Positions 342 through 60,909 of a DNA stretch of 64,000 nt are shown here, piece by piece; the stretch's first letter is position 1; each line of letters starts with the position of its first letter. The stretch is from Muribaculaceae bacterium (GTDB lineage: Bacteria; Bacteroidota; Bacteroidia; Bacteroidales; Muribaculaceae), in contig JAKSLZ010000003.1 in assembly GCA_024400935.1 (NCBI GenBank), forward strand, positions 1-64,000. The letters are read 5' to 3'. Below the pieces are notes generated by a model, which ran no database searches, was not told the origin of the DNA, and saw only the letters and a list, made by a program, of their open reading frames with translations. A program made the translations under genes and the position numbers.

Positions 342-2837
342 TTATTTGCCCAGTATAATATTGAGGACGGTGTTCACATCGGTGATGTCGACTTCGCCGT
401 TGCCGTCTACGTCGGCGCGGTTGCCATAGTTAGAGGCTTTGTCCTTGCCCAGGATGATGTTGAGCAAGATATTGGCATCGGTGATGTCCACCTCGCCGTC
501 GCCGTTCACGTCGCCCTTCTTTCCTGCGGGTGCGGGCCACAGGTTGAGGTAGTACTCATTGTAGCCACTTTGCTGTGCACTGGGAATCTTGAGGTAGCTG
601 GTGCCCGAGAGTGCATAGTTGCCACTGTGGGTGGGGCGAATGAATTTTTTACTGTCGGTGTTCCAGATGTAACCACCATCCACGCCATAAACGTCAACCT
701 TGATGCCGGGAACGCCTACCAGCAAGTTGCGAACAGGGTTGCTGCCGGTTGTCACGCGTGGCAGGCGGTAGATTTTATCTTTTTCAATTCCAGTTACCAC
801 AACACCAGTGCCTGCTGCAACGCTGGCAATTGTGCTGGTGTTAAGGGTATTGCCTGTGCCGTTAGTTACATAATAGGCATTGAGACCGCTACCGCTGAAT
901 GTCACGGGAACTGCACATGAGAATGTGGCGTTGTCATATGTGCTCTGGATGTAAGGAGCTAAGAAATCGATACCAGTCTTGCCACTGCCCATGTCCCAGT
1001 TCTTGAGTGCCGAGGTGTAGAAACCATTGAACACATCGCTTCTCACCCAGAAGGTGAATCCACTTGCGTTGTTGCCAAAGAACTTGCCGTCCCACGTTGT
1101 ACCTGACGTGTTGAGCAGAGTTACATTCTTGAGCAAAGAGGCATTAGACAGCGCATCAGTGGCAAACGATGACACGGTGTTACCCAAGTCTATATCGGTA
1201 ACGCTGGTGCCGCGGAAGGCATCAGTGTCGATGCGTGTGGGAGCATATACTTTTCCGTCATTAGATGTAGCATTCACTGCGATCTTGGCATTAAGACTGC
1301 CCATTCCATGCACTACCTTCAACGTACCGTCATAGTTAGTCCCGTTGATTGTAGTTTTGTTGCTGCTGGTAACGGTGTAATAGGCATTAAGCTTGAAGTC
1401 ATAGGCTGTCTTGTAGTCAGGGTTGACCGATGTGAATTTGCTCCATGTCTTGCTTGCCTTGTAATCGGCCACCACCTCGCGAGGCACATAGAGCTTGGCT
1501 CCAGCATCAATTCCCACATTGGTGGCATTGAGATCGGCGCTGCTCATTGTTGTCTTGTTAGAGATGTTCATGACAAACTCTGCATCCTTTGTAAACCAGC
1601 AGTTATACATCCAGTCAGTGTGCAGGATGGTCACCGACGAGGGTATGTTGAGGTAGGAGTGAATGTTAGTCTTTTCAAACGCGTGACTCTTGATTTCCTT
1701 GAGGCCATACGGGATATGGATGGCACTGTTGCTCCACTGGAAACCTTCGAATGCATACTCGCGTATTGTGTGTACAGGTTGCACTTTAACGGTGTGGTAT
1801 TCCGTGCGGAAGGGTACACACACAAGTTCATTGTTGCCTGTGATACCCTTGCCGTACAGGATGCCGTCATCGGTCCAGAAGTTGTTGTTCTCGCTGCTCA
1901 CCTGAATCTGAGTCAGAAATATCGTATGGCGGAACACTGCCTGGCCCAGGGTGGTCAAGTTCTTGGGCAAACTGATGACTCCCAGCTTGCTGTTGTAAAA
2001 AGCCTCGTCGCCTATAGTGGTGAGGCTGGTGAGATTCTTGAGCTGCGCTGATTTTATTTCCGAGTCCATGAATGCATGTTTGCCTATCTTGGTGTACTCA
2101 AACCAGTGTTCATATCCCATGGGCGACGAGATGGCGTTGGTGGGTTCGTAGGTGGTGGCGCTGGACACTTGCGAACCGTTAGGGTTGAAGCCCACGATGG
2201 TGCACTTGTGAGTCTCGCCCGCTCGGGTTGCAGGGGTCTCGACTACCGACACTGTGCCGTCGACCATATACATGTCGTAGGCCAGCACGCTGCGTTCGAT
2301 GCTAAAGAGACGTTCCTGCTCGTCCGACGGCCAGATGTCGCCGTTGGGGAAGTAAGCCTTCATGCCCGAGTTTACGGGGAAAACGCTCTCGCCATAGTTC
2401 ACGCGTCCCTGGTGTGACTGAGCGGTGTAGAAATTCTTAAAAGCCGAGCATCCGTTGAATGCCCATGAGCCAATAGAGGTAACCGATGAAGGAACATAAA
2501 CCGAGACAAGCTTAGTGCATTTCTGGAAAGAGGCGGAACCGATGGTACGCATTCCGTAGGGGAAGCGCACAGCAGTAATCTTGTCGTTGCCAGCAAAGGC
2601 GCTGGACTTGACCGATGTCACGTTGTAATAACCTCCGTTATAGGCTACCGATGGAGTAATCTCGAGTGCTCCCGAAACGGATTCACCGCTGGCAAGGCCA
2701 TTAAGCTGGCACTCGCCACGCAAGCTTCCCGACGGAGCCTTGGTAATGGTGTAACTATAACTGCCCCAGGTAAAAGTCTGTGCCACTGCAAGCATAGTCA
2801 CTGAGAGCATTATGAGCAATGAAAGTAATTTCTTCAT
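342..2837 (-). CDS. Secreted BspA-like leucine-rich repeat protein with C-terminal dockerin
   Basis: Predicted surface or secreted 831-residue protein. Residues 1-20 form a signal peptide (MKKLLSLLIMLSVTMLAVAQ). The body carries BspA/LRR_5 repeats, visible as recurring blocks such as IGSASFQKCTKL, IGSWAFNGCSAF and IGDEAFYNSKL, and seems to hold two repeat regions separated by non-repeat segments. The last ~58 residues are a dockerin type I module with two Ca-binding halves (GDVNGDGEVDITDANILLNI and DVDGNGEVDITDVNTVLNI). BspA-type repeats are known for binding host proteins and other bacteria; dockerins bind cohesins. A partial relative lies just downstream (1-121). A TATTTTTG box at 2879-2886 on the minus strand could be the -7 promoter element. 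The ligand is unknown. Confidence 0.85.
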   Translation of the reverse strand: MKKLLSLLIMLSVTMLAVAQTFTWGSYSYTITKAPSGSLRGECQLNGLASGESVSGALEITPSVAYNGGYYNVTSVKSSAFAGNDKITAVRFPYGMRTIGSASFQKCTKLVSVYVPSSVTSIGSWAFNGCSAFKNFYTAQSHQGRVNYGESVFPVNSGMKAYFPNGDIWPSDEQERLFSIERSVLAYDMYMVDGTVSVVETPATRAGETHKCTIVGFNPNGSQVSSATTYEPTNAISSPMGYEHWFEYTKIGKHAFMDSEIKSAQLKNLTSLTTIGDEAFYNSKLGVISLPKNLTTLGQAVFRHTIFLTQIQVSSENNNFWTDDGILYGKGITGNNELVCVPFRTEYHTVKVQPVHTIREYAFEGFQWSNSAIHIPYGLKEIKSHAFEKTNIHSYLNIPSSVTILHTDWMYNCWFTKDAEFVMNISNKTTMSSADLNATNVGIDAGAKLYVPREVVADYKASKTWSKFTSVNPDYKTAYDFKLNAYYTVTSSNKTTINGTNYDGTLKVVHGMGSLNAKIAVNATSNDGKVYAPTRIDTDAFRGTSVTDIDLGNTVSSFATDALSNASLLKNVTLLNTSGTTWDGKFFGNNASGFTFWVRSDVFNGFYTSALKNWDMGSGKTGIDFLAPYIQSTYDNATFSCAVPVTFSGSGLNAYYVTNGTGNTLNTSTIASVAAGTGVVVTGIEKDKIYRLPRVTTGSNPVRNLLVGVPGIKVDVYGVDGGYIWNTDSKKFIRPTHSGNYALSGTSYLKIPSAQQSGYNEYYLNLWPAPAGKKGDVNGDGEVDITDANILLNIILGKDKASNYGNRADVDGNGEVDITDVNTVLNIILGK

Positions 2838-2983
2838 ATTATTAGTAGTTGTTTTGATAAGCTATTAAGTCCAAAAGACAAAAATACAAAAAAAATCTAA
2901 CAAAACACACAACTTTTAGCGCTTTGTTTCCAATTAATTGTTGTTATTGTGGTTATTGTGGCATTGCAATGGTGATTGCAATG

Positions 2984-3223
2984 GTGGCGGGCCTCAGCGT
3001 GGCCGTTGTAGTGGCGGGCCTCAGCGTGGCCGTTGTGGTGGCGGGCCTCAGCGTGGCCGTTGTAGTGGCGGGCCTCAGCGTGGCCGTTGCTGTGGCGGGC
3101 CTCAGCGTGGCCGTTGTAGTGGCGGGCCTCAGCGTGGCTGTTGTAGTGGCGGGCCTCAGCGTGGCCGTTGTAGTGGCGGGCCTCAGCGTGGCTGTTGTAG
3201 TGGCGGGCCTCAGCGTGGCCCGC
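2984..3223. repeat. Tandem array of 27-bp REP-derived units
   Basis: Nine units begin at 2984 and then every 27 bp (3011, 3038, 3065, 3092, 3119, 3146, 3173, 3200). Each starts GTGGCGGGCCTCAGCGTGGC; the first eight end with a GTTGTA-like tail and the ninth ends GGCCCGC, completing a hairpin. Differences are single bases (GCC/GCT, GTA/GTG/GCT). Inside each internal unit a 4-bp GGCC/GGCC stem surrounds the TCAGCGT loop. There are no unique spacers, so it is not a CRISPR. The array abuts the 3' end of the RAYT gene and fills most of the gap at 2838-3209. Confidence 0.9.
3200..3223. repeat. REP hairpin at the 3' end of the RAYT gene
   Basis: GTGG tetranucleotide head, stem GCGGGCC (3203-3209), loop TCAGCGT (3210-3216), stem GGCCCGC (3217-3223): seven perfect pairs. 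The loop's TCA is the TGA stop of the minus-strand transposase gene. A GTRG head next to a GC-rich palindrome is typical of REPs served by RAYT transposases. Confidence 0.8.
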
Positions 3224-4196
3224 TAATCACCCGCGCCTCTTGGCTGGTAATGGAGCAAATGTCGCTTGCCATCGAATTAAGCGAGAGGCACTGGTCGCGT
3301 GTAATTCTCCTCTTCTCGTAGTGGAAAGGCCATGGAGCCAATAACAACAATTTACCCTGGGTGCAGTAGTCAAATTCCCAGCCATAGGGCTTGAACACCT
3401 CGGGGAAGCCGTTTTCTTTGAGCACAATCAGTTTTCCACCATAATCACGAGCCATCTCGCGCACTTCCTTCTCACGTGGGCTCACAAACGGCGAGACAAG
3501 AACGCCACCATTTTCTATCACATCCTTCCACATTGATAGATTGCGGTTGTGATCGTCAATTGTGTCACTCCTGTGAACCACGACCTGAACTTTTTCAACT
3601 TCACGAAGCAAAAGGATATTGCCATAAGCTGCATAGTCCTGACCGGCAATCACGATGTGAAGGTATTTGCGGAACAACTGTGGGTGATACCTCTTTATGG
3701 CCAAGCGACGCGGGTTGTCGTCGATATATTGCTTTATGGCCTGCAACTGCCCCTTGCGGTACACAATGCGGTCATGATATCCCTCCTCAAACAGAGGCAG
3801 AAGGCCTTCATCATGCGGCAACAACGCCCTGAGGGCCTTGTTGCACCCGGTCTTAAAACCCTTAACGACATTCCCTAGTGTGATACCCGTTAACTGGCAC
3901 GACACGAAAAGCAATATATGCACATGGTCTTCCATACACACATATTTCCAAATCTCTATTTCTTTATAGAAGTGAGTGATATTCTCAATACACTCTATCA
4001 CCTTTTCTCCGAGCGGAGAATGCACTATGTGTGGAGATTCAACTCCACCTGCCAGCCGGCCCAGCAAGCGACGGCGGTCCTTGACCACCATGGTGAGCAT
4101 ATAGACACCACGGCCACTATAATCTCGCCACGTGCAACGGCGTTTCATAGAGTGCTTGACAGGCGACAATGGATGATGGGGATGCTCGTCTTGCAT
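3210..4196 (-). CDS. REP-associated tyrosine transposase (RAYT, Y1 HUH) with C-terminal extension
   Basis: Single-strand DNA transposase-like protein of the IS200/TnpA-REP group, expected to nick and join REP hairpins with a catalytic tyrosine. Visible motifs: the metal-binding HUH pair H91-V-H93 in EDHVHILLFV and the candidate nucleophile Y157 in AIKQYIDDNPRR. The Y1 domain fills residues ~15-190. Residues ~195-320 are extra: YGNILLL, SPFVSPREKEVREMARDYGG and GKLLLLAPWP look like a DprA/SLOG-type Rossmann fold; that is my inference. REP hairpins with the same loop lie on both sides: one contains its stop codon, the other lies upstream in the end of ispF. It is probably a domesticated, non-self-moving transposase. 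The start at 4196 is uncertain; the ATG of MKRR at codon 17 is an alternative. Confidence 0.85.
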   Translation of the reverse strand: MQDEHPHHPLSPVKHSMKRRCTWRDYSGRGVYMLTMVVKDRRRLLGRLAGGVESPHIVHSPLGEKVIECIENITHFYKEIEIWKYVCMEDHVHILLFVSCQLTGITLGNVVKGFKTGCNKALRALLPHDEGLLPLFEEGYHDRIVYRKGQLQAIKQYIDDNPRRLAIKRYHPQLFRKYLHIVIAGQDYAAYGNILLLREVEKVQVVVHRSDTIDDHNRNLSMWKDVIENGGVLVSPFVSPREKEVREMARDYGGKLIVLKENGFPEVFKPYGWEFDYCTQGKLLLLAPWPFHYEKRRITRDQCLSLNSMASDICSITSQEARVISGPR

Positions 4197-4230
4197 GCTG
4201 GTAAATTAAAAAAGGGAGAAACAACAAAGG

Positions 4231-4271
4231 TGGCGGGCCCGGGCCCAGTGGCGAGCCTCAGCGTGGCTCGC
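4231..4271. repeat. REP hairpin pair at the 3' end of ispF
   Basis: Stem GCGAGCC (4251-4257), loop TCAGCGT (4258-4264), stem GGCTCGC (4265-4271), with the GTGG head at 4248-4251. Compared with the hairpin at 3203-3223 the third stem pair has changed on both sides (G:C to A:T), so the structure is kept. A second degenerate unit with a GTGG head and the perfect palindrome GGGCCCGGGCCC (4235-4246) lies beside it. The loop supplies the TGA stop codon of ispF. Confidence 0.8.
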
Positions 4272-4749
4272 AATTGATGAGCGCCACGGCATAGGCGCTG
4301 ATGCCTTCCTCACGGCCGGTGAAGCCCAGGCGCTCGGTAGTGGTGGCCTTGATCGACACCTGCGAGACGTCGCAGTCCATGCACTGCGCCAGCTGTTCCT
4401 GCATGGCGGGGATGTGCGGGTTGATCTTGGGACGCTCAGCGCAGATGGTGATATCACAGTTGCCCAGCACATAGCCCTGCTCAGCAAGCAGGCGCACAAC
4501 TTCGCGCAGTAGCTTGCGGCTGTCGATGCCCTTGTATTGCGGGTCGGTGTCGGGGAAGTGGTAGCCTATGTCGCGCATGTTGGCGGCACCCAGCAGGGCG
4601 TCGCACAGAGCGTGTATTGCCACATCGGCGTCGCTGTGGCCCAGCAAGCCCAGCGTGTGCTCGAGCTTGACACCGCACAGCCACAGTTCACGGCCTTCCA
4701 CCAGACGGTGAACGTCAAATCCCATTCCTATTCTGAACATATTACTCAT
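4258..4749 (-). CDS. ispF: 2-C-methyl-D-erythritol 2,4-cyclodiphosphate synthase
   Basis: Converts CDP-methylerythritol 2-phosphate to the cyclic diphosphate with loss of CMP in the MEP isoprenoid pathway; the active form is a cytosolic trimer. The 163 residues carry the family hallmarks: GMGFDVHRL with the metal-binding Asp and His, LGHSDADVAIHALCDALLGA, FPDTDPQYKGIDS, and KATTTERLGFTGREEGI. It lies 61 nt downstream of porV on the same strand, a common Bacteroidetes arrangement. Oddity: the last residues (NCEPR) and the stop codon are encoded by a REP palindrome, so the native C-terminus was probably replaced when the REP landed. The catalytic part is intact. Confidence 0.96.
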   Translation of the reverse strand: MSNMFRIGMGFDVHRLVEGRELWLCGVKLEHTLGLLGHSDADVAIHALCDALLGAANMRDIGYHFPDTDPQYKGIDSRKLLREVVRLLAEQGYVLGNCDITICAERPKINPHIPAMQEQLAQCMDCDVSQVSIKATTTERLGFTGREEGISAYAVALINCEPR

Positions 4750-18112: not shown

Positions 18113-19414
18113 ATGAGAAAAATCCTCCTTCTTTTACTTATTATCAGCAGCATGACAGTATGGGCCAGCCCCGAATTTCAGATTTCGCCCAAATTTGAGC
18201 AACAGCAGTTTGAAGAGATAAAGACCCGAGCCGAGGCCGGCGACACCGATGCTCAGCTTGAACTGGCGCGACGCTACTACGAGGGCAATGGTGTAGAACA
18301 GTCGTTTACTGATTTCTTCAAGTGGCTCAAAACTGCCGCCGAGCAGGACTACGCCTGGGCTCAATACTGCCTGGGATGGAGTTATGAAAACGGAGATGGT
18401 GTCACCAAGTCTATGACCGAGGCGGTTGAGTGGTATCGCAAAGCGGCAGAGCAAGGCGTGCCCGAGGCACAACACAGCCTGGCTGGATGCTATTATTTTG
18501 GAGATGGTGTCGCAAAGTCGTTAGCCGAGGCCGCAAAATGGACACAAAAAGCGGCTGAACAAAACTACCCCGAGGCTCAGTACAACCTAGGACGCTGCTA
18601 TGAAAAGGAAGAGGGTGTTGCCAAGTCATATAGTGAGGCTGTGAAGTGGTATCAGAAAGCAGCCGAAAACAACCTCCCCGAGGCACAATTCAGTCTGGGA
18701 TTGTGTTATTTTTACGGAAATGGAGTGACCAAATCAAAAACTGAAGCCGTGAAGTGGTATCAGAAAGCGGCTGATCAAGGTTACGCCGAAGCACAATACA
18801 ACCTGGGATGGTGTTATCTAAATGGTGAGGGGGTAGCAAAATCATCCACAGAGGCGGTAAAGTGGTTCACTATGGCTGCCGAGCAAGGCTTAGCTGAGGC
18901 TCAATTTAACTTGGGGCTTAGTTATGAAAAGGGTACGGGCGTCACCAAGTCGGTGACCGAAGCGGCTAAGTGGTATCGCAAAGCGGCAGAACAGGGTTAC
19001 CCTAAAGCCCAGTTTAACTTGGGGTGCTGCTACCACAGTGGTGATGGTGTTGCCAAGTCGGCATCTGAAGCGGTAAAGTGGTACCGCAAAGCTGCTGAGC
19101 AAGGCATGCATGAGGCGCAGTACAACCTGGGATGGTGCTATGACAACGGTGTGGGTGTCACAAAATCATATGCGGAAGCATTGAAGTGGTACAACAAAGC
19201 AGCCAACCAGGGCTACACAAAAGCACAATACAACTTAGCGATAATGTATGCCAATGGCCATGGCGTGAAAAAAAGCGATGAGGAAGCTCTAAAGTGGCTC
19301 AAGAAAGCCGCGGCCGGAGGTGACCACACGGCACAGGAAGCTCTCAAGGAGATTGAGAAAGCACAAGGAGGTAGCTCCAAAAAGAGCAGTGGCAGCAGCC
19401 GCAAGCGCAAATAA
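18113..19414 (+). CDS. Secreted Sel1-like repeat protein
   Basis: Exported helical-repeat protein, 433 residues from the start MRKILLLLLIISSMTVWA at 18113; an ORF start 33 nt earlier would add a non-signal stretch. After the signal peptide come ten Sel1 repeats of 36 residues, each with the form AEAQYNLGxCYxxGxGVxKSxxEAVKWYxKAAEQG. It ends in a Ser/Lys-rich tail (SSKKSSGSSRKRK). Sel1 repeats form a protein-binding superhelix and often act in envelope stress or secretion complexes. The 108-bp DNA repeats are similar enough to recombine. The DUF3667 gene follows after 31 nt. Confidence 0.93.
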   Translation: MRKILLLLLIISSMTVWASPEFQISPKFEQQQFEEIKTRAEAGDTDAQLELARRYYEGNGVEQSFTDFFKWLKTAAEQDYAWAQYCLGWSYENGDGVTKSMTEAVEWYRKAAEQGVPEAQHSLAGCYYFGDGVAKSLAEAAKWTQKAAEQNYPEAQYNLGRCYEKEEGVAKSYSEAVKWYQKAAENNLPEAQFSLGLCYFYGNGVTKSKTEAVKWYQKAADQGYAEAQYNLGWCYLNGEGVAKSSTEAVKWFTMAAEQGLAEAQFNLGLSYEKGTGVTKSVTEAAKWYRKAAEQGYPKAQFNLGCCYHSGDGVAKSASEAVKWYRKAAEQGMHEAQYNLGWCYDNGVGVTKSYAEALKWYNKAANQGYTKAQYNLAIMYANGHGVKKSDEEALKWLKKAAAGGDHTAQEALKEIEKAQGGSSKKSSGSSRKRK

Positions 19415-59919: not shown

Positions 59920-60909
59920 TTACAGATTTTGAATTTCCTCAATGCTAAGCCCAGTGACTGACGCAATGGTTTCAATGGGGACTCCGGCTTTTTTGAATCC
60001 TATAGCGTTTTTAATTCGCTCTTCATCACGGCCTTCCGCACGACCCTCTTTCAAACCTTCGTCACGGCCCTCTTTCAAACCCTCAGCACGACCTTCAGCA
60101 CGACCTTCAGCACGACCTTCAGCACGACCCTCAGCACGACCTTCAGCACGACCCTCAGCACGACCTTCAGCACGACCTTCGATGCGGGCAGTGTCCATGA
60201 TGTCGTTTTGAATCATCTGCTCATTGAGGTGTTCAAAGTAGGCATCCTTTTCCTTCTTGCTCATTGCCATATACTCCAACTTTTTCTTTGCTTCTTGGAG
60301 TCCCGGGGCTGTTGTGTTGTCATCTATGTCACCGTCTTTAAGATATTTAATCCATTCCTCAAGATGGTTTTCGGCAATTTTGTTGAAAGCGTTAACGCGG
60401 ATAAGGTAATATTCGGGGAACACCTCGCCCGGAGTCTTCATACGTATGGCATTGTCTTCCTTTGTAGAAATCTGCAAGGTGTCATCTTTAGTCATGCCGC
60501 GGAATGTTGTCTGTCCGCGATAAACGAAGTCCTCGCCTTTTCCCAAATCAAAGTACAAAATACTGATTGAATACACCTTCTTCACTTGGTCGTATTTCTG
60601 CCCCAAAGTAATGTGCTCTGTTATCGCCTTGGCAACTCCATAAAGGATACGCTCGAGGAAATAGATCTCTCGAGTCAACTGTATCTCCACAAGGATTATC
60701 TCGTCCTTGCTGTTGCGGGCTTTGATGTCGACACGGTTGAACTTGTCAGTAGCATCAATCTGGTTACTCTCGCTTTCAAGTATCTCTACAATAGTCACCT
60801 TTTCACCCAGAAGAACTGTAATTAGCCCTTCCAGAATGCTAAAATTCTCCTTGTCGCGCAAGATTTTCTTGGCAGCCCAGTCAAATCGTATGTATTTGTT
60901 CTCAGCCAT
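59920..60909 (-). CDS. Rpn family PD-(D/E)XK nuclease / putative transposase with EGRA repeats
   Basis: 329 residues from MAENKYIRFDWAAKK (60907-60909); a longer reading overlaps the promoter. The N-terminal ~225 residues match the TIGR01784/Rpn family: FDWAAKKILRDKENFSILEG, LLGEKVTIVEILESESNQ, and the catalytic D...ExQ pattern in FNRVDIKARNSKDEIILVEI-QL. The C-terminus has eight Glu-Gly-Arg-Ala units, then LKEGRDEG variants, and ends KKAGVPIETIASVTGLSIEE. Rpn proteins promote RecA-independent recombination as DNA endonucleases. The repeat is 12 bp at the DNA level (60055-60180), so its copy number can slip without a frameshift. Confidence 0.9.
   Translation of the reverse strand: MAENKYIRFDWAAKKILRDKENFSILEGLITVLLGEKVTIVEILESESNQIDATDKFNRVDIKARNSKDEIILVEIQLTREIYFLERILYGVAKAITEHITLGQKYDQVKKVYSISILYFDLGKGEDFVYRGQTTFRGMTKDDTLQISTKEDNAIRMKTPGEVFPEYYLIRVNAFNKIAENHLEEWIKYLKDGDIDDNTTAPGLQEAKKKLEYMAMSKKEKDAYFEHLNEQMIQNDIMDTARIEGRAEGRAEGRAEGRAEGRAEGRAEGRAEGRAEGLKEGRDEGLKEGRAEGRDEERIKNAIGFKKAGVPIETIASVTGLSIEEIQNL

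Follow-up and report, generated by a model that had tools for sequence, protein, structure and literature searches.

A gene for a RAYT-like protein of 328 aa, found in the 64-kb window of gut-bacterial DNA examined here (the window being the whole stretch of DNA that was analyzed), encodes a likely single-strand-DNA-cutting HUH/Y1 nuclease, judging from its sequence motifs. In the reading that best explains the locus, to which we give about an even chance, this is a stay-at-home RAYT-like element whose protein, a fusion of an HUH/Y1 domain with a predicted DprA-like domain, nicks its own two GTG-footed hairpins and not dispersed repeats.

Two hairpins and an array of truncated copies

The gene (3210..4196, minus strand; an open reading frame) lies between ispF upstream (4258..4749, minus strand; PF02542 (YgbB), 241.6 bits) and, downstream, a gene for a leucine-rich-repeat protein of the BspA type that also carries a dockerin domain (342..2837, minus strand; PF13306 and PF00404). 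Its complete 3' hairpin (3200-3223, plus strand; stem-loop 3203-3223) is built from a GTG foot, the stem arms GCGGGCC and GGCCCGC and the loop TCAGCGT, and its complete 5' hairpin (4248-4271, plus strand; stem-loop 4251-4271) has the same foot and loop with the arms GCGAGCC and GGCTCGC. Both feet sit on the plus strand directly 5' of the 7-bp stem, and the final G of the GTGG seen at each is the first base of that stem. The initial annotation had placed palindromes with a common TCAGCGT loop on either side of the gene and had noted a paired change in their stems; both hairpins are confirmed by the sequence and by single-stranded DNA folding (-9.7 kcal/mol, z -3.45, for the 3' hairpin and -8.6 kcal/mol, z -2.72, for the 5' hairpin), and the stem change is a single compensated pair. 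Among the ten hairpins of the window that combine a 7-bp stem and a 7-nt loop, TCAGCGT is the sole recurring loop, and the core CCTCAGCGTGG occurs there 13 times with at most one mismatch against a shuffle mean of 1.27.

This two-palindrome picture was incomplete, as foot, 5' arm and loop recur eight more times beside the 3' hairpin, and one truncated copy accompanies the 5' hairpin. A 27-bp tandem array (2984-3220; 8.8 copies, 95% matches, Tandem Repeats Finder) reaches into the 3' hairpin, and its eight truncated units (2984..3199, plus strand) each run from the foot through the 5' arm and the loop into the start of the 3' arm and then continue in a filler that is mostly GTTGTA; the ninth unit is the only complete hairpin of the array. 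On the 5' side, a truncated unit (4230-4247, plus strand) directly precedes the complete hairpin. The closest relative found, the sister species Candidatus Sodaliphilus limicaballi (95% protein identity, genes 94% identical in DNA), keeps the BspA-type gene beside the RAYT-like gene and has the 3' hairpin GCGAGCC-TCATTGT-GGCTCGC; its array of 2.2 copies carries the changed stem letter and loop of that hairpin, and thus array and hairpin have changed together between the two species.

The loop of each hairpin, taken on the minus strand, supplies a TGA stop codon, with the RAYT-like protein ending in SGPR and the ispF product in CEPR. REPs that supply stop codons are already known (PMC3733652), and a stop codon within the hairpin was not borne out as a family rule, being present in few loci only. 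The open reading frame over the array (2924-3226, plus strand) was set aside as a protein because a stop-free 27-bp repeat is open by construction. A search for RNA families in the 64-kb window returned nothing but a tRNA. The window also holds a 108-bp coding repeat at 18548-18844 (2.8 copies), whose translation we take to resemble Sel1-type repeats, and a 12-bp repeat, ACCTTCAGCACG, at 60079-60180 (8.5 copies, 94% matches).

A Y1/HUH core with a predicted DprA-like half

The Y1/HUH core (about residues 28-170; 3687..4115, minus strand) is matched by PF01797 at 27.9 bits against a cut-off of 23, and the NCBI model NF047646 scores 34.1 bits, under its cut-off of 80. Within the HUH motif D90-H91-V92-H93 (3918..3929, minus strand), D90, H91 and H93 are invariant in 54 aligned relatives, as is the predicted catalytic tyrosine Y157 (3726..3728, minus strand; Y-IDD-NP), which follows H91 by 66 residues. 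The context Y157-xDD-NP, whose NP residues are likewise invariant in the 54, is the class-2 motif Y---NP, so that the protein combines the HUH motif and the tyrosine by which class-2 RAYTs are defined in PMC6006769, and the flanking hairpins add the GT[AG]G foot of that class, GTGG at both. The conserved W between HUH and Y is absent; F136, at the LFEEGY position, is invariant in the 54 relatives, a correspondence drawn by eye. In the relatives' alignment, columns of about 200-275, which lie between the HUH motif and the tyrosine, hold an insert that is rich in repeats and varies strongly; it recalls the in-gene REP insertions reported for subclass 2.4.

The structure model of the 328-aa protein has a pLDDT of 85.8, and residues of about 176-316 (3249..3671, minus strand) are predicted to resemble the Rossmann-type fold of DprA/SMF proteins. 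Lower-ranking Foldseek hits were molybdenum-cofactor carrier and TM1055 entries (probability 0.77-0.80, E about 0.3 or worse). The claim of kinship with DprA rests on predicted folds, since hhalign against DprA profiles was twice negative (probability 4.3% and 3.4%, not above the level of the N-terminal control) and PF02481 was absent from the Pfam matches of the 54 relatives. DprA binds single-stranded DNA and loads RecA, and the predicted DprA-like domain may likewise handle single strands or have a RecA-related role. The name RAYT given in the initial annotation thus holds for the Y1/HUH core with its Y---NP motif but not for the whole, which is not a plain RAYT given its predicted DprA-like C-terminal half.

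Relatives of the gene occur in 238 of 397 same-family genomes and, among the matches listed, all end at residue 311 or later and therefore reach through the C-terminal half. In a 395-genome phylum sample, all listed matches outside the window's own genome end by model position 221, that is, within or just past the Y1 half; the five other same-order genomes named there were all without a match. A set of 39 proteins of 107-272 aa, many from short contigs, are candidates for a stand-alone C-terminal domain. The predicted Y1 and DprA-like fusion was observed in this analysis only in Bacteroidales records, a literature search, with most subscription journals beyond its reach, found no published Y1/HUH-DprA fusion, and a word search of PMC6006769 found neither DprA, Rossmann nor RecA. 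PADLOC assigned three proteins to none of its defence-system families.

Hairpins and arrays beside the relatives

Hairpins also accompany the gene in its relatives. The gene is present in 71 of 74 examined loci, which were drawn from a score-ordered match list and are not a random sample. Among the 65 of these with enough flank, 26 have a hairpin (at most two mismatches) on both sides of the gene and 39 do not, compared with 144 of 4,160 control pairs that join the upstream flank of one locus to the downstream flank of another. Beside the genes, hairpins of 7-10 bp number 1.96 per kb, as against 0.19 per kb in the rest of the same loci, and a GTG stands at a foot in 59 of 79 hairpins next to the genes and in 10 of 36 of the others (37/50 against 10/34 when distinct sequences are counted; Fisher p = 1e-4). 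Between loci of two genomes, a common hairpin occurs in 0 of 525 pairs whose proteins are less than 50% identical, in 3 of 197 pairs with 50-60% identity and in 38 of 129 pairs with more than 60%; none of ten same-genome pairs has one. Hairpin and protein diverge together, which is partly explained by common descent and is no proof that the protein chooses its hairpin. It is plausible that the flanking GT[AG]G-type hairpins are the cognate substrates of the RAYT-like protein.

At 24 of 71 loci, or 22 of 69 once two doubled entries are removed (L036 and L065 are one contig, L062 and L145 one locus), a tandem array stands no more than 400 nt from the gene; of 210 control blocks, each 800 bp long, 7 have one. 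Inspected by eye, the 26 arrays from the 69 loci comprise nine with one complete hairpin at one end only, three whose units mostly contain a hairpin (L158, L159, L173), eleven without a hairpin and three that are ambiguous (L059, L168 and one of L160). The nine belong to the window, the sister species, G256 (on both sides of the gene), the related G187 and G283 (loci L152 and L162), G313, G193 and G316. Their truncated units lie, again by eye, on the foot side in seven cases, five with a GTG foot and those of G187 and G283 with GTAATG; the exceptions are G316 (L058), where they lie on the opposite side, and G313 (L160), which is ambiguous. Among 17 control array rows, some of them overlapping, none held a hairpin.

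Two loci illustrate the range. In L145 (G256:C53:29300-32700) a distant relative, 38% identical to its best query, stands between two arrays of truncated hairpins in 25-bp units (985-1098 and 2204-2351), each ending in one complete hairpin. In L173 (G286:C51) a 79-bp unit repeated 6.7 times (1957-2486) lies behind a relative, with a hairpin in most units; this is whole-unit duplication, unlike the array of the window.

Slippage is the main rival explanation for the arrays, and an insertion-sequence-like life the main rival for the hairpin pair. A polymerase stalled at a hairpin can yield truncated tandem copies, and both hairpins of the window stand at gene 3' ends, between same-strand genes; they could then be ordinary terminators or mRNA-stabilizing ends of ispF and the RAYT-like gene, with slippage having made the array and the enzyme uninvolved. 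We consider this unlikely in view of the family data, in which GTG-footed hairpins are ten times denser beside the genes than elsewhere in the loci and occur on both gene sides, and arrays attend the genes (24/71, or 22/69) beyond the rate in control blocks (7/210), the control arrays being free of hairpins. Nor do the other ispF genes of the genus behave as such a reading would have it: at the 29 other loci compared they end within a few residues of AVALI with no such hairpin, and of the 28 other ispF genes that lie beyond those of the near relatives, none was seen to end in one.

The hairpin pair could instead mark a dormant IS200/IS605-like insertion sequence, bounded left and right by the same-strand hairpins, its gene encoding a transposase that has an extra domain and seldom moves. 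Same-strand hairpins do stand at both ends, and flank repeats of at least 14 nt, found in 15 of the 33 loci with enough flank against 26 of 1,056 control pairs, are mostly direct (14 loci, with inverted repeats in 4). The surroundings of ispF, a gene present in 94 of 101 genus genomes, point the same way: in 30 loci compared, the window's own included, the 29 others (three of them shorter than the rest) have no full relative of the RAYT-like gene within 1.5 kb of ispF, and the element may therefore have entered there. Two of these loci (L120, L121) have a 56-residue match of about 30% identity to the RAYT-like gene. For the empty-site comparison, ispF neighbors vary among relatives and the contig of the sister species ends at the RAYT-like gene. 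We nevertheless hold this reading to be quite unlikely. Near-identical genomic copies are missing among 33 same-genome gene pairs from the sampled loci (best 72% identical, median 51%), plasmids gave no match to the gene, and none of 90 pattern stretches in viral contigs is a relative of it. The protein has Y---NP rather than the Y---Q of IS200 (PMC6006769) and, at 328 aa with two domains, is not a short single-domain TnpA; the sister species, moreover, retains the gene beside the BspA-type gene.

The preferred stay-at-home reading depends on where else the hairpins occur. The assembly of the window's genome (2.84 Mb, 140 contigs) is 77% complete, with 23% missing. Its 14 occurrences of the 11-base core comprise 10 at the RAYT-like locus and 4 elsewhere that pair over at most 4 bp. 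A degenerate hairpin pattern allowing three mismatches gave no further complete hairpin among the best-matching of 214 sites, the sole off-locus site within one mismatch in that set having unpaired arms; a family-type pattern marked 10 candidate sites in the same genome. The many dispersed intergenic copies expected of REPs were thus not found, and the view of the initial annotation that the hairpins are REPs is not supported: the outcome it had named as refuting, a hairpin that is found nowhere else, was obtained within the 77% of the genome covered. With complete hairpins found at a single place in this partial genome, the targets of the enzyme would be its own ends and not scattered repeats. 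The other outcome named there as refuting, the same hairpins in relatives without the gene, was not seen: the degenerate form is absent from 13 other genus genomes, each with other RAYTs of this family, while for genomes without the family the search used a two-footed hairpin pattern. That pattern has no match in the window's own genome.

Other genomes give a similar picture with some exceptions. G367 has its own hairpin twice at the RAYT and at one weaker extra site, and of 14 pattern sites in G256, 7 flank the RAYT on either side at 25-bp spacing, one lies at the gene end and 6 are candidate sites elsewhere. Three hairpin-like sites in G319 (L142, L143, L144) are solitary, with no RAYT in the surrounding 2 kb, and possibly represent early dispersal; one is followed by a T run between genes. 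Two paralogs in the window's genome (G000:C54 and G000:C107; L026 and L068) have long hairpins with a common 15-base arm, GCAYCCTTGTGGCAA, which has exact matches at these two paralog loci only. An ordinary REPtron, its dispersed copies in the missing part of the genome, lost or not yet spread, is very improbable: it would account for the class-2 Y1 core, the GT[AG]G-type foot, the one hairpin per RAYT lineage and the sites in G319 away from the RAYT, but the 98% complete G135 has just two copies of its own hairpin at up to three mismatches, both flanking the RAYT, the two-footed pattern occurs in 10 of 33 genus genomes, at a single place in each, and in none of the rest (reversed control, 3/33), and no TnpA-REP subclass in the consulted sections of PMC6006769 has the predicted DprA-like domain.

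A proposed cycle and its place among known systems

Hairpin cleavage and enzyme-driven growth of the array could be joined in one cycle. When the locus becomes single-stranded, for example as lagging-strand template, the hairpin would fold, and Y157 would cleave the foot, so that the enzyme stays bound to the 5' phosphate and a 3'-OH end becomes free. This end would be extended through foot, 5' arm and loop, halt in the 3' arm and be rejoined, while the DprA-like domain might hold the exposed strand or pass it to RecA. With every round the array would gain one truncated unit, placed on the foot side of the single complete hairpin as is observed, and array and hairpin would be kept similar by recombination among the copies. 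Cleavage by HUH enzymes yields a tyrosine-5'-phosphate and a 3'-OH end that is free to prime synthesis or to rejoin, and priming and rejoining routes have both been proposed for the spread of REPs, a process still poorly understood for RAYTs, according to PMC8266576. In its strongest form the proposal describes a self-editing element in which an HUH nuclease with a DprA-type handler cuts only its own hairpins and grows truncated arrays under a lineage-private hairpin code; we regard this as possible, with more doubt than belief. If true, a domesticated transposase would here have its own locus as target, and an HUH protein would carry a recombination mediator within itself. The fusion, if it is as predicted, would combine nicking by the HUH domain with handling of the strand in a single polypeptide. 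Enzyme and likely substrate share a single place here, and the array would record past events in its truncated units, its one complete hairpin and their joint change between sister species; the question of how REPs are copied is therefore testable here with one protein and one short array.

Among known systems, the REPtrons of RAYT/TnpA-REP proteins (class 2 TnpA-Y1; E. coli structure 4er8) share with this element the HUH/Y1 core, Y---NP, the GT[AG]G-type foot and few, diverged copies per genome, whereas here no dispersed REPs were found, the core W is replaced by F136, and a predicted DprA-like domain and arrays of truncated hairpins are added. Such pairs had been called less described in Bacteroidales, which is only partly right, as TnpA-REP subclasses 2.4 and 2.6 are listed in Bacteroidetes (Quentin et al. 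2018, PMC6006769). IS200/IS605 elements (IS608, ISDra2) have the Y1 fold and same-strand hairpins at both ends in common with it and differ in protein length (about 150 aa against 328), in the Y---NP motif found here and in the near-identical copies not found here. The predicted fold of residues 176-316 is common to DprA of H. pylori and S. pneumoniae and to ShosA, from which the present domain is set apart by having no significant sequence match to them and by its fusion to a predicted nuclease. The TIRYTs of subclass 2.1 (PMC3733652 and PMC6006769) are likewise long relatives of RAYTs with an added C-terminal domain and locus-specific repeats; their added domain is described as helix-turn-helix-like and their repeats as terminal and inverted, whereas the element described here has a predicted DprA-like domain and same-strand hairpins.
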